From a virus: 25,001 nucleotides of DNA. Under the pieces are notes generated by a model. The model searched no databases, was not told the DNA's origin, and saw nothing but the letters and a program-made list of their open reading frames with translations. Numbering within the stretch: the first letter of the stretch is position 1; each line of letters starts with the position of its first letter. Made by a program: the position numbers and the translations under genes. Shown here piece after piece: positions 4,918 to 10,062 of this stretch. The stretch lies in IMG/VR virus record IMGVR_UViG_3300046804_000875, positions 1-25,001 of that record; one strand, written 5' to 3'.

Positions 4918-5229
4918 ATGGAAACACTTGAAGAACTAAAGCAAAAACTACTACTTTACGAACAAAATGGAGCGGCTAAGTTATTCTACGCTTTGAATCG
5001 TAAAGCTAATGAAATGGCGGATTTGTTAAATAAGACAAACTTATCCCATTTACAATTAGAAGATAAGAATGACAAGACGTTTGAAAGATTGAAGATTTTA
5101 TGGAATGATAGCGCAAGCATATCAACTGCTATTAGGGATTTAGGTATATCTGCTGGTGTTACGGGTGATGAGCAAAAAGACGTTGCTAAGAAACCATTTG
5201 TAGAAACCATTGCTGAAAGCAGAAAATAA
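4918..5229 (+). CDS. Small helical protein, possible small terminase subunit
   Basis: A 103-residue, mostly helical protein (METLEELKQKLLLYEQNG at the start) that lies three bases after the previous stop and three bases before the large terminase gene. Position and size fit a small terminase subunit, which recognises phage DNA and hands it to TerL. The segment around residues 60-80 (ERLKILWNDSASISTAIRDLGIS) could hold a short helix-turn-helix-like unit, but I do not see a convincing DNA-binding motif. The terminase role is therefore an inference from gene order only; it may simply be an unknown phage protein. Confidence 0.45.
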   Translation: METLEELKQKLLLYEQNGAAKLFYALNRKANEMADLLNKTNLSHLQLEDKNDKTFERLKILWNDSASISTAIRDLGISAGVTGDEQKDVAKKPFVETIAESRK

Positions 5230-5232
5230 CCT

Positions 5233-7284
5233 ATGCTAGAAACCATAAAAATATACGGCACGGAAATTCAAATTCCGGAAAAGCCTGATGCATCTGATAT
5301 AGAAAATTGGGGTACAGATGACCCTAATGAACAATATTGGAGAAGAAAAGAAATACCTGCTTTTTTATCTCTTGTAGAATATGATAGTGAGGGTAATGCT
5401 CTATTAAACGCAGAACAAGCCGCCTATGCTAATAGAGAAGTTCTAAGATGCAAGAAAGGATTTTGGTTTTACAATAATGGTGCTCCAACTTACATAACAG
5501 GCAAAAATTATTTTTATTTAAGTTTTTGGAAACTAGAGGATGACATATATCCAGACTACAGGGATACAGATAGAAGATACTTTTTATTCTTAGACCATTG
5601 GGAAAGAACTCCTTGGTGCTTAGGTATTGTAAGAGGTAAGAAAAGACGTGAGGGTGCTACTTCAGTAGCTACTTCTAACTTGGTTTATGAATGTATATTT
5701 TACAAAAATAGCTTCTGCGGTTTAACGAGTAAAACTCAGGTGGATGCTAAGGCTGCGTTTACAAACATGGTTTCTTTTGGTTACAGGCAGTTGCCAGTAT
5801 TTTTAAAGCCAAAGCAATTAAATAATAAAGATAGCGTTAGTGAATTAGTATTTGCTCACAAATCAGTAGAAGTAAGAGGAGCTAAAGGAAGTATAGTAGA
5901 TACAGATACAGGACATAGGTCTAGGATTGATTATAGAGCCCCTTCTTTGAACTCTTATGACTCAGGCCGACTAAGTAGGGGGTTGTTTGATGAGGGTGGA
6001 AAATGGGCTAAAGAAAACCCTTTTTCAACATTTATATCAATCGTAAGTAAGACTCTTGTAAAGGGTGCTAAAAGGGTTGGATTTATAGAGTGTCCTTCTA
6101 CATCAAACTCAATGACAAGTGGTGGTGAGGAATTTAAGAACGTATGGGATGGTGCTGACCATTTCAAATACGCAAAGACACCTAACCGATTGGTTAAATA
6201 CTTTGCTCCGGCTTATGATGGGTATTTAGGTTTTATTGACAAATTCGGAATGAGTGTTATTAATGAGCCTACAGAAGAACAATATAAGTTTCTAGTTGAA
6301 TATTATGTTGGAGCTGGTGACTTAGATGAAAACGATATAAAATTAGGGGCTAAGAAGTATTTGGAGGAAAAAAGAAAACAATTAGAAGGCGTACAATTAG
6401 AAGAAGAAATAAGGATGAACCCTTTTGATGAAAGGGAAATGTTTATGCTTCGGAACAATAATTGTCACTTTGATGCCGTTGTATTGAATGACCTATATGA
6501 ACTAGCAAAGGTGAACGAAAGCTCTGCTGTTGAATATGGTAATTATGTTTGGGAAGGTGGGATACCATTTACAAAAGCTATTTGGCATAAATGTGATAAA
6601 GAGAGCGCAAGGTGGCATAGGGCTAAGGATTTTAAAACACCAGAAGAAACATACGAAAAAAGAGGTAGTTTATTTATACCAAAGAACTATGTTCAGTTTG
6701 TAAGTGCGGTTGACCCCTTTCAGAACTCAGTAGTTGAATCAGGAGAAGGCTCTAAAGCTAGTAGCTTTGTGATGAATAGATATGATAAGGGAGATAATGA
6801 CCCGATATTTGATAGGATGCTAGTTTCAAAGTATCACGCTAGACCTAAAATGGTAGAGCTTTTCCACATGGATATGGCTTTACAATGTTTTGCATACGGA
6901 GGCCAATTGCTTGTGGAGGCTAAAATGGATGGTGGATTAAGGAAGTTCTTTATAGACAATTATTTAGAAATGTTTCTAATGAAGCTACCAAATAAGGATA
7001 CTTATGGTGTTGACCCTAATGCTGATAATAAAGCATTGATGGTTAACTTGTGGGAGCAGTATATACTTACGAGTGGCAAAGACGGTAAAATAATATATCC
7101 TAATTTGATAGATGATAAATATGATGGATTATTAAAGTTCAATGTTAATGATACGGAAGTATCGGATTTGGTAATGGGAGGTGGATGGACTTTATTTGCA
7201 GATTATTATAAAAAGGTTAACTTGAAGAAAATAGAAAATAAGACTAAGCTTTCTGATTATTTTGCTATGAAACCAACACGCTAA
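5233..7284 (+). CDS. terL: Terminase large subunit (packaging ATPase/nuclease)
   Basis: This 683-residue protein is the motor that drives DNA into the prohead and cuts the concatemer. The ATPase half has a Walker A-like loop GKKRREGATS (about residues 135-144), a Walker B strand ending in Asp-Glu (GLFDEGGKW, D253/E254) and a coupling motif near ECPSTSN (about 286-292). The C-terminal RNase H-like nuclease half has acidic residues in the expected order: SAVDPFQ (about D493), LLVEAKMDG (about E561) and EVSD (about D644). Length is typical for large terminases of Bacteroidota phages. The P-loop is the variant, Arg-rich form found in terminases and not a classical GxxxxGKT. The stop shares its last base with the next start (TAATG), which couples the glycosyltransferase island to terL. 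Confidence 0.88.
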   Translation: MLETIKIYGTEIQIPEKPDASDIENWGTDDPNEQYWRRKEIPAFLSLVEYDSEGNALLNAEQAAYANREVLRCKKGFWFYNNGAPTYITGKNYFYLSFWKLEDDIYPDYRDTDRRYFLFLDHWERTPWCLGIVRGKKRREGATSVATSNLVYECIFYKNSFCGLTSKTQVDAKAAFTNMVSFGYRQLPVFLKPKQLNNKDSVSELVFAHKSVEVRGAKGSIVDTDTGHRSRIDYRAPSLNSYDSGRLSRGLFDEGGKWAKENPFSTFISIVSKTLVKGAKRVGFIECPSTSNSMTSGGEEFKNVWDGADHFKYAKTPNRLVKYFAPAYDGYLGFIDKFGMSVINEPTEEQYKFLVEYYVGAGDLDENDIKLGAKKYLEEKRKQLEGVQLEEEIRMNPFDEREMFMLRNNNCHFDAVVLNDLYELAKVNESSAVEYGNYVWEGGIPFTKAIWHKCDKESARWHRAKDFKTPEETYEKRGSLFIPKNYVQFVSAVDPFQNSVVESGEGSKASSFVMNRYDKGDNDPIFDRMLVSKYHARPKMVELFHMDMALQCFAYGGQLLVEAKMDGGLRKFFIDNYLEMFLMKLPNKDTYGVDPNADNKALMVNLWEQYILTSGKDGKIIYPNLIDDKYDGLLKFNVNDTEVSDLVMGGGWTLFADYYKKVNLKKIENKTKLSDYFAMKPTR

Positions 7285-7909: not shown

Positions 7910-8605
7910 ATGCAACAGATAAGTATTTGTATCCCAACTTGGAATAGGGTAGAAATGACCCTAAATAGCTTTAAAAAAGTTTATAATGATGCTAGAATAG
8001 ATACCATTGTAATAGTAGATGATGCTAGTGATATTGATGTGTATACTAGACTTAAAGAAGAATGTGATAAGTTAAGTAAGGTTAAGCTTTACAGAAATGT
8101 TACAAATCAGGACTGTTATGCCAATAAATTCGTAGCCGTTAGCTATTCACCAACTGATTATTGTATACTTTTAGATAGCGACAATCAGATAGATGAAACA
8201 TACATAGATAAGATATATTCTCAAACTTGGGATAAAAAGACCATACTAGCACCCGATTTTGCAAAGCCATTATTTGATTATACAGAATTTAGTGGACTTA
8301 CAATATCTAAGGAGAATGTGGCAAAATACATGGATAGACCATTCTTTGCCACTTGCTTAAATTGCATGAACTATTTTGTTGCTTCAATGGAATATGTTAA
8401 AGTTTGGGATGCAAATACAGACCCACATAGTTCTGATAGTATATATCAAAACATGAACTGGTTTAAATGGGGTAATAAAATGCACATTGTGCCGGGTATG
8501 CAATACGAGCACTTAGTTCACGATGAATCACACTATAAGTTGAATTGTAGCATAGACCCAGAATTTTATCAAAAAGTTGAAGAAGAACTTAGAAATATGA
8601 AATAA
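7910..8605 (+). CDS. Family 2 glycosyltransferase
   Basis: A 231-residue GT-A fold glycosyltransferase. Evidence is the N-terminal strand ISICIPTWNR, the VIVDDAS motif (D37/D38) that binds the nucleotide, and the DxD motif CILLDSDNQ (D89, D91) that holds metal and sugar phosphate. Length is shorter than many GT2 proteins, with only the catalytic domain and no membrane segment, so a soluble enzyme is expected. Donor and acceptor cannot be read from the sequence. It starts two bases after the previous stop; a 129-nt structured intergenic region follows it. Confidence 0.8.
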   Translation: MQQISICIPTWNRVEMTLNSFKKVYNDARIDTIVIVDDASDIDVYTRLKEECDKLSKVKLYRNVTNQDCYANKFVAVSYSPTDYCILLDSDNQIDETYIDKIYSQTWDKKTILAPDFAKPLFDYTEFSGLTISKENVAKYMDRPFFATCLNCMNYFVASMEYVKVWDANTDPHSSDSIYQNMNWFKWGNKMHIVPGMQYEHLVHDESHYKLNCSIDPEFYQKVEEELRNMK

Positions 8606-8665
8606 ATTATTTATTTTAGTATCGCTTAATTCATAAAAAAATGGTTAGTTGTTAAATAAGACATA

Positions 8666-8730
8666 CCCCCGAAAACAAGACGTTCAAGCCCCCCTGCGTG
8701 AATTAAGCCGTCTTGTCGTAGGGGGCTTTT
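8666..8730 (+). ncRNA. Candidate structured RNA (pseudoknot) before the GT11 gene
   Basis: In an AT-rich genome this GC-rich patch contains two pairs of complementary arms in interleaved order. ACAAGACG (8675-8682) pairs with CGTCTTGT (8709-8716), eight base pairs. AAGCCCCC (8686-8693) pairs with GGGGGCTT (8721-8728), eight base pairs. The order A-B-A'-B' is that of an H-type pseudoknot. The second pairing alone can extend to a hairpin down to GCG/CGT (8696-8698 with 8717-8719), and its 3' arm is followed by TTTT, so it might also act as a weak terminator. An upstream ACCCCC run (8665-8670) could compete for the GGGGG run. The 3' arm ends seven bases before the next ATG, so folding could block or permit its translation. 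No known RNA family is recognised. Confidence 0.5.
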
Positions 8731-8734
8731 AATT

Positions 8735-9472
8735 ATGGTAACATTTACAAACGCTGGAAGAATGGGTAACTGGTGCTTTGAAGCAGCAACCGCAATAGCT
8801 TATGCCTTAAAGCATGACCTAGATTTTACTGTGCCATCCCATAGCGAAAATCCTAAATGGAATCCCATATATTGCTTACACTTAGTTAATCCTAATTATA
8901 ACCCAAGCTTAGAAAAGATTAATTTATGGGAGGGTAAGCATAGTTATGAAGAACTACCTTTTAATGAAGAATGGAGGGATAAGAATATTTCAATAGAAGG
9001 TTATAGACAAACCGCTAAATACTTTGATGAGTACAGGAACGAAATACTTTATTTATTTAATTTCCCATACAATAAAAAAGAAGGATATGTTGCTTGCCAT
9101 GTCCGTAGAGGAGATTATGTTCAATTAAGGGATAAGCACCCTGAAGTAAAAGTAGAATGGTATGAAAAAGCTATGGCAGAATTTCCCGGATACAAGTTTA
9201 AGTTCTTTTCTGATGACATTGAATGGTGTATGGAGAACTTTAAGCACAGAAATGATTGCGAATTTTCTGGTAATACTGATGAGGTATCAGACCTATTAGA
9301 AATGAGTTGGTGCGAGCATCAGATATGCAGCCCAAGTACATTTAGTTGGTGGGGCGGATGGCTCAATAGAAACGAAAATAAGAAAGTTATATTCCCTACT
9401 TTTTGGTTTAGCCCCGGTTGGGATGGATTAGATACTAGCGATATTGTTCCACCTTATTTTATAAAAATGTAA
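8735..9472 (+). CDS. GT11 fucosyltransferase-like enzyme
   Basis: This 245-residue protein matches the alpha-1,2-fucosyltransferase family GT11. Visible family motifs are the N-terminal GRMGNWCFE (residues 8-16, compare G-G-L-G-N-Q-x-F), the GDP-sugar-binding HVRRGDY (122-128) and CSPSTFSWWGGWL (198-210), the family's S-x-S-T-F-S-W-W-x-x-x-L block. GT11 enzymes transfer L-fucose from GDP-L-fucose in an inverting reaction. It is a little shorter than the usual 270-300 residues. No GDP-fucose synthesis genes are visible, but a GDP-mannose 3,5-epimerase is encoded two genes downstream, so the donor may be GDP-L-galactose; this is inference. The start lies directly after the structured RNA candidate. 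Confidence 0.88.
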   Translation: MVTFTNAGRMGNWCFEAATAIAYALKHDLDFTVPSHSENPKWNPIYCLHLVNPNYNPSLEKINLWEGKHSYEELPFNEEWRDKNISIEGYRQTAKYFDEYRNEILYLFNFPYNKKEGYVACHVRRGDYVQLRDKHPEVKVEWYEKAMAEFPGYKFKFFSDDIEWCMENFKHRNDCEFSGNTDEVSDLLEMSWCEHQICSPSTFSWWGGWLNRNENKKVIFPTFWFSPGWDGLDTSDIVPPYFIKM

Positions 9473-9474
9473 TT

Positions 9475-10062
9475 ATGAGTGATTTTTTAATGTTTGATTT
9501 TCCGCATTTCTATCAGAAGATTGCAAAAGAACTTCCTGATGATTGTAAAGTTTGTGAGGTTGGAGTTGCTGATGGTGATAGTGCCTTGTATTTGGCTCAA
9601 GAGTTGAATAGACTTGGAAAAAAGTTTAAGATGTATATGGTGGATAATATGGATTACGGAAAGTATATCCAAATGAAAACCATATATCAAAACATAATTA
9701 AAAGTGGATTAGGTGAATTTATAGAAGTGGTTCCGTTTGGTAGTTTAGATGCCGCAAAAATGTTTAATGACGGATACTTAGATTTCTGTTATATAGATTC
9801 ATCACATACATACGAAGAAACTAAAAAAGAAATTAGAGCTTGGTATCCGAAAGTTAAAGATGAGTATATATTAGCAGGACATGATTATAATGCAGATGAA
9901 GTACGTAGAGCAGTTGAAGAAGTTGTTCCTAAAGTATTTGTAAGAGATGATATTGGTGATAGAAGTTTTAATCCTGAAAATGTATTACAATCAGAAGATA
10001 CTTTAAATCACTTTGGCGTATGGTGGTTTAGAAAACAATGGTATTTAAAACTAAATAAATAA
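9475..10062 (+). CDS. Class I SAM methyltransferase (Methyltransf_24 type)
   Basis: A 195-residue Rossmann-fold methyltransferase. Motif I is VCEVGVADGDSALYLA (about residues 26-41), the acidic residue for the ribose of SAM is in MYMVDNMD (D57), and the block YIDSSHTYEETKKEI (about 106-120) followed by LAGHDY (133-138) is typical of the Methyltransf_24 group often found in polysaccharide gene clusters. The likely role is O-methylation of a sugar in the product of this island, but the substrate is not shown by the sequence. Two bases separate it from the GT11 gene and two from the epimerase gene, consistent with one operon. Confidence 0.78.
   Translation: MSDFLMFDFPHFYQKIAKELPDDCKVCEVGVADGDSALYLAQELNRLGKKFKMYMVDNMDYGKYIQMKTIYQNIIKSGLGEFIEVVPFGSLDAAKMFNDGYLDFCYIDSSHTYEETKKEIRAWYPKVKDEYILAGHDYNADEVRRAVEEVVPKVFVRDDIGDRSFNPENVLQSEDTLNHFGVWWFRKQWYLKLNK

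Follow-up and report, generated by a model that had tools for sequence, protein, structure and literature searches.

A GC-rich element of mutually exclusive pairings before a phage glycosyltransferase gene: a possible leaky terminator or attenuator

The GT2/GT11 junction within a phage sugar cassette

The window analysed here is a 25-kb virus record (25,001 nucleotides), with a genome GC content of about 34%. Its large terminase gene (terL, 5233-7284) matches PHROG 6681, and the encoded protein is ~29% identical to the TerL proteins of Flavobacterium phages, with further matches to phages of Cellulophaga, Tenacibaculum, and Maribacter; the virus belongs to the Flavobacterium/Cellulophaga kind of phage. 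The interval between terL and the portal gene is a sugar cassette comprising GT25-like, GT2, GT11, methyltransferase, epimerase, and FkbM genes. Two of these, a family 2 glycosyltransferase (GT2, 7910-8605, plus strand; Pfam PF00535, E 4.8e-12) and a family 11 glycosyltransferase (GT11, 8735-9472, plus strand; Pfam PF01531, E 8.3e-22), flank a non-coding gap of 129 nt (8606-8734, delimited from the open reading frame list) that is the longest intergenic gap of the window and contains the element described below. The junction sits within a syntenic late gene cluster, and a search for tRNA and tmRNA genes found none.

The surroundings of the junction vary among related contigs. In L122 and L128, whose TerL proteins are about 50% identical to that of the window, the portal gene follows terL immediately, so either one line gained the sugar cassette or the other lost it. 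In the epimerase region of the clade member L090 (14827-16366), the epimerase is only 66% identical (95-96% in the others) and is preceded by ~630 extra bases, which points to ongoing reshuffling of the cassette. The putative small-terminase-like ORF of the window (4918-5229) takes its label from its position before terL alone. In L091 and L116 (~9647-9994), two members of the window's clade, the corresponding gene is ~52-58% identical to that of the window and TerL is 98-99% identical, a pattern that suggests a recombinational swap of the small-terminase-like gene.

Crossing complements and competing folds

A first-pass annotation of this DNA had described two perfect 8-bp pairings in interleaved order, and a repeat search recovered both. 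Arm A, ACAAGACG (8675-8682), pairs with A', CGTCTTGT (8709-8716), and arm B, AAGCCCCC (8686-8693), pairs with B', GGGGGCTT (8721-8728); the A-B-A'-B' order is borne out, and the two stems cross within the gap in the manner of an H-type pseudoknot RNA. B' lies just before the GT11 ATG (8735), as had been noted, and a short interrupted T run, TTTTAATT (8727-8734), adjoins that ATG. Beyond the earlier description there is a third crossing pairing, a perfect 10-bp complement between arm C, GCTTAATTCA (8624-8633), and C', TGAATTAAGC (8699-8708). C' abuts A', so that the arm order becomes C-A-B-C'-A'-B', and all stem pairs among C/C', A/A', and B/B' cross. Past a bulged C at 8694, the B/B' hairpin can be extended by four pairs (one G-U) between TGCG (8695-8698) and CGTA (8717-8720), at a constrained energy for the hairpin alone of -18.4 kcal/mol, compared with -13.2 kcal/mol without the extension; the 18-nt loop of this longer hairpin consists wholly of C' and A'. 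All of these arms are given for the plus strand.

The GGGGG of B' (8721-8725) has two mutually exclusive partners, the CCCCC of arm B (8689-8693) and an upstream CCCCC (8666-8670), an arrangement in which one arm is shared as in attenuators. The upstream C run, which the first-pass annotation had proposed as a competitor, is real and in register with A, the combined arms 8666-8682 and 8709-8725 (inverted repeat I1) being 82% complementary. It also appears in the minimum free energy (MFE) structure. Folded as a single strand, 8660-8740 has an MFE of -24.7 kcal/mol (z -2.5; 7 of 200 shuffles were equally stable), and the fold is nested: CCCCC (8666-8670) pairs with GGGGG (8721-8725) and A with A', the two helices being separated by a 4x4 internal loop. 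Its layout, CCCCC-GAAA-ACAAGACG opposite CGTCTTGT-CGTA-GGGGG, spans 17 positions with only 13 canonical pairs and accounts for ~99% of the nested ensemble. The T run is the end point of both the nested fold and the extended B/B' hairpin. When the transcript was folded as it grows, C/C' was favoured at 8710, A/A' at 8720, and A/A' together with CCCCC/GGGGG at 8725; C/C' or A/A' alone occurred in shorter transcripts only, and with either partner of GGGGG a stem is placed at the T run. The proposal of two alternative folds is supported, the CCCCC-containing nested fold competing with B/B'.

The duplex energies are -9.7 kcal/mol for A and -15.0 kcal/mol for B, and with an assumed pseudoknot penalty of 9.6 kcal/mol the pseudoknot is estimated at ~-23 kcal/mol. 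This is near the -24.7 kcal/mol of the nested fold, so that energy cannot separate the two. Of the pseudoknot described at first pass, the crossing perfect stems stand; as the actual fold it has a nested rival that is equally stable or slightly better on the same A/A' arms, and an A/A' plus B/B' pseudoknot is, by these models, a possible state of the element.

The arrangement is uncommon by chance. When the gap was shuffled 20,000 times with its dinucleotide composition kept, 73 shuffles contained any interleaved stem pair of at least 8 bp, and none contained such a pair in which each stem had at least four GC pairs; the element is the only GC-rich pair of this type in the window. Crossing 3' arms that abut, as C' and A' do, arose in 4 of the 20,000 shuffles, and the window has no other instance of them. 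These tests were devised after the sequence had been inspected and their counts are therefore indicative. The crossing stems are non-random.

Distribution, insertion and conservation

Seven viral contigs carry the element, with GT11 genes 96-100% identical to that of the window, and one of them (L001) has nearly the same genotype. Relatives with the same gene order and GT11 genes ~60-82% identical have about 17-50 nt at the GT2/GT11 junction. Comparison of the seven carriers (L001-L007) with the element-free sister contigs (L008-L023) delimits a clade-specific insertion of ~104 nt at approximately 8623-8726 (plus strand), its ends being placed by eye in AT-rich DNA. Since the element is confined to one clade and the sister junctions are short, insertion in that clade is the likelier history and loss in the others is less likely. 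The placement of the ends follows a candidate imperfect direct repeat, TTTTAGTAT (8614-8622) and TTTTAATTAT (8727-8736), both of which resemble TTTTACTTATG of the element-free junction in the sister clade.

No further copies turned up when viral contigs were scanned with four exact sub-motifs, when GTDB was scanned, or when phages and plasmids were searched by BLAST, and the gaps upstream of 80 GT11 loci contained no true copy outside the same clade. The matches that these searches returned were chance coding matches or members of the same clade; those in GTDB were PYDKT codons, mostly in GC-rich genes, several of which we read as ribosome recycling factor. Within the window, the small-terminase-like ORF (4918-5229) shows a weak colinear likeness to the 5' half of the element (8611-8684), sharing TTGTTAAATAAGACA and ACAAGACGTT in order; this resemblance is probably due to chance.

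The arms are identical in all eight contigs (the window and its seven relatives), and with no arm position varying, covariation offers evidence neither for nor against any of the stems. Between 8639 and 8734, 0 of 96 sites are variable, and ~18% are variable in GT2 and GT11. As a control, alignments of four to six contigs covering three further gaps in these phages gave 6 variable sites of 147 combined, not significantly more than the 1 of 124 in the element (Fisher p 0.13). Extreme conservation was accordingly rejected as a mark of special function: other gaps are nearly as conserved, and conservation of non-coding DNA is general in the clade.

A separate candidate element occurs in this clade. 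A promoter-like box, TATATTTG, lies no more than ~70 nt ahead of a strong terminator (GCCCC...GGGGGCTTTTT), and the combination is conserved in three members (L057 ~2595, minus strand; L061 ~3002, minus strand; L067 ~7386, plus strand). From its sequence, the pair is a candidate small RNA or attenuated leader.

A proposed leaky stop ahead of GT11, its rivals and its likeness to known systems

Several features of the junction resemble intrinsic termination. A GC-rich stem, either B/B' or the nested one, runs directly into (C)TTTTAATT, a weak T run, and the 3' arm together with the T run reads GGGGGCTTTT. Other terminators in these phages likewise have GGGGGCTTTTT, the core of this arm, as their 3' arm; the clear terminators of these phages and of the sister clade have the 3' arm GGGGGCTTTTT(T) and are located after stop codons and between convergent genes, as exemplified by GGGCCCCTATTATTCTTAATGGGGGCTTTTTT. 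No exact match to the flavobacterial -7 box motif TAnnTTTG (PMC9723704) is present in the GT2/GT11 gap, and GT11 and the genes after it therefore probably rely on read-through. Among the transcript contexts of Flavobacterium psychrophilum, partial stops at intrinsic terminators form a recognised class (PMC9723704). The shared 3' arm, combined with the interrupted T run, the large loops and the missing promoter box, leads us to read the element, most economically, as a leaky, bistable intrinsic terminator or attenuator ahead of GT11, an assignment to which we give about an even chance. Several points count against it. The T run is short and interrupted, as opposed to T5-T6 in the other terminators; the loops are 18-27 nt rather than the 3-8 nt of a typical intrinsic terminator, and exceed the 8-nt limit of a simple terminator scan, which did not return the element; and the three crossing complements are superfluous for a simple terminator. 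The earlier suggestion of a terminator with an antiterminator holds in part: a terminator with an alternative fold is supported, and neither state is a clear antiterminator, both keeping a stem at the T run.

On the terminator or attenuator reading, the element would be a structured RNA acting in cis within the polycistronic late transcript. Right before the GT11 start codon it would form a GC-rich hairpin that ends in GGGGG and is followed by CUUUUAAUU, and the leaky stop would reduce transcription of GT11 and its downstream genes without abolishing it. We infer the stop of the polymerase at the stem, its partial character, and the importance of the alternative folds. Pairings between the 5' and 3' halves would be mutually exclusive, with C/C' forming first as the RNA emerges, followed by A/A' with or without CCCCC/GGGGG, or by B/B', possibly with A/A' retained as a pseudoknot; several mutually exclusive pairings of this kind would make the stop bistable. 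Transcription speed, or ribosomes that are completing GT2, may tune this stop. A stronger version, which we regard as distinctly unlikely, is a three-step strand-displacement switch in which C/C' gives way to A/A' and then to CCCCC/GGGGG or B/B', with transcription timing or trailing ribosomes deciding whether the polymerase stops before GT11. Were that so, it would represent a new attenuator layout that arrived as a single ~104-nt insertion, and an unusually compact case of timing-dependent RNA folding.

Other roles for the same RNA have to be weighed against this reading. The nested stem could be an mRNA processing, stability or translation-control hairpin that does not stop transcription, either serving as the substrate of an RNase III-type enzyme of the host or shielding or exposing the GT11 start. 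Its 17-position stem with an internal loop and its dominance of the nested ensemble fit such a role, as do the position of its base, 9 nt before the GT11 ATG, and the location of the junction in a syntenic late gene cluster; however, it contains only the 13 canonical pairs, and termination accounts better for a 3' arm of the terminator type, so that we hold this reading to be unlikely. An H-type pseudoknot of A/A' and B/B' as the functional fold, acting as a cis-regulator and perhaps binding a protein or ligand, draws on the interleaving of two perfect stems beyond chance and on its estimated energy, close to that of the nested fold when the penalty of 9.6 kcal/mol is assumed. We consider it improbable nonetheless: the nested fold does as well or slightly better with the same A/A' arms, the 4 nt that separate A' from B' make a short loop for crossing an 8-bp stem, Rfam gave no match, and the searches returned no divergent homologue. 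It is very improbable that the element is an independent trans-acting small RNA with the B/B' terminator as its 3' end, one conceivable target being the small-terminase-like mRNA by way of CGTCTTGTCGT (8709-8719). The 3' end is terminator-like, and 11 nt are complementary to the small-terminase-like gene in two clade members, but this match is missing in the window and in other element-bearing clade members, similarity over the whole window is near chance, and no recognisable promoter lies upstream.

The two remaining proposals go back to the first-pass annotation. A DNA site for packaging (pac-like) or recombination would accord with a clade-specific insertion bounded by a possible imperfect direct repeat, with the end of terL 1.3 kb upstream, and with the weak colinear resemblance to the small-terminase-like gene. 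Yet 3 of 100 shuffled elements match the window equally well, the small-terminase-like gene has drifted, or given way to a divergent version, at the matching bases in clade members that have the same element, sister phages with the same packaging genes are without it, and no second copy was found. A packaging site by similarity to that gene was rejected on the shuffle result and the loss of the matching bases, and a DNA site of either type appears remote. A new self-cleaving RNA is hardly credible. Small ribozymes often have crossing stems and the element is compact (~104 nt); against this, the Rfam 15 covariance models gave no known ribozyme or riboswitch in the window at the gathering score and no family match at E values up to 5 in 8600-8800, the 4 nt between A' and B' do not fit an HDV-type core, and nothing searched held a second copy. 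Hammerhead and HDV cores were also rejected by eye, their core strands being missing.

If the attenuator reading is correct, this phage clade would have gained tunable control of sugar-modification genes through one small insertion in a late operon. A search for noncoding RNA in Flavobacterium phages found no paper in the literature collection covered, and the element is a clear, testable candidate in the Flavobacterium/Cellulophaga kind of phage group: an unusual-looking switch, probably of an ordinary kind.

Comparison with known systems places the element near several classes. Like the T4/RB69 gene 32 mRNA pseudoknot, it has crossing stems ahead of the start codon of a phage gene. In the gene 32 mRNAs of T4 and RB69, a pseudoknot of ~28 nt is followed by a less structured stretch of more than 40 nt with UUAAA repeats and then by gene 32 (PMC535899), whereas the stem of the element stops 7-9 nt short of a glycosyltransferase ATG. 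Control of the gene 32 type, suggested earlier, thus fails on the gene (GT11 in place of a single-strand binding protein gene) and on the distance, and the spacer of more than 40 nt with UUAAA is lacking. The intrinsic (Rho-independent) terminators found in this phage group have, as here, a GC-rich stem with the 3' arm GGGGGC followed by Ts; the element differs from them in its 18-27-nt loop, its short interrupted T run and the extra competing complements upstream, and in lying directly before a co-directional gene, unlike those between convergent genes. T7-type RNase III processing hairpins sit between late genes, and the element resembles them as an intercistronic hairpin with an internal loop, although with fewer canonical pairs and a large apical loop. 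Compared with attenuators, both of the trp-leader type and in riboswitch expression platforms, the element is without a leader peptide and a known ligand fold, and its alternatives both keep a stem at the T run, so that neither is a clear antiterminator; what it shares with them is the convergence of alternative pairings on one terminator arm.
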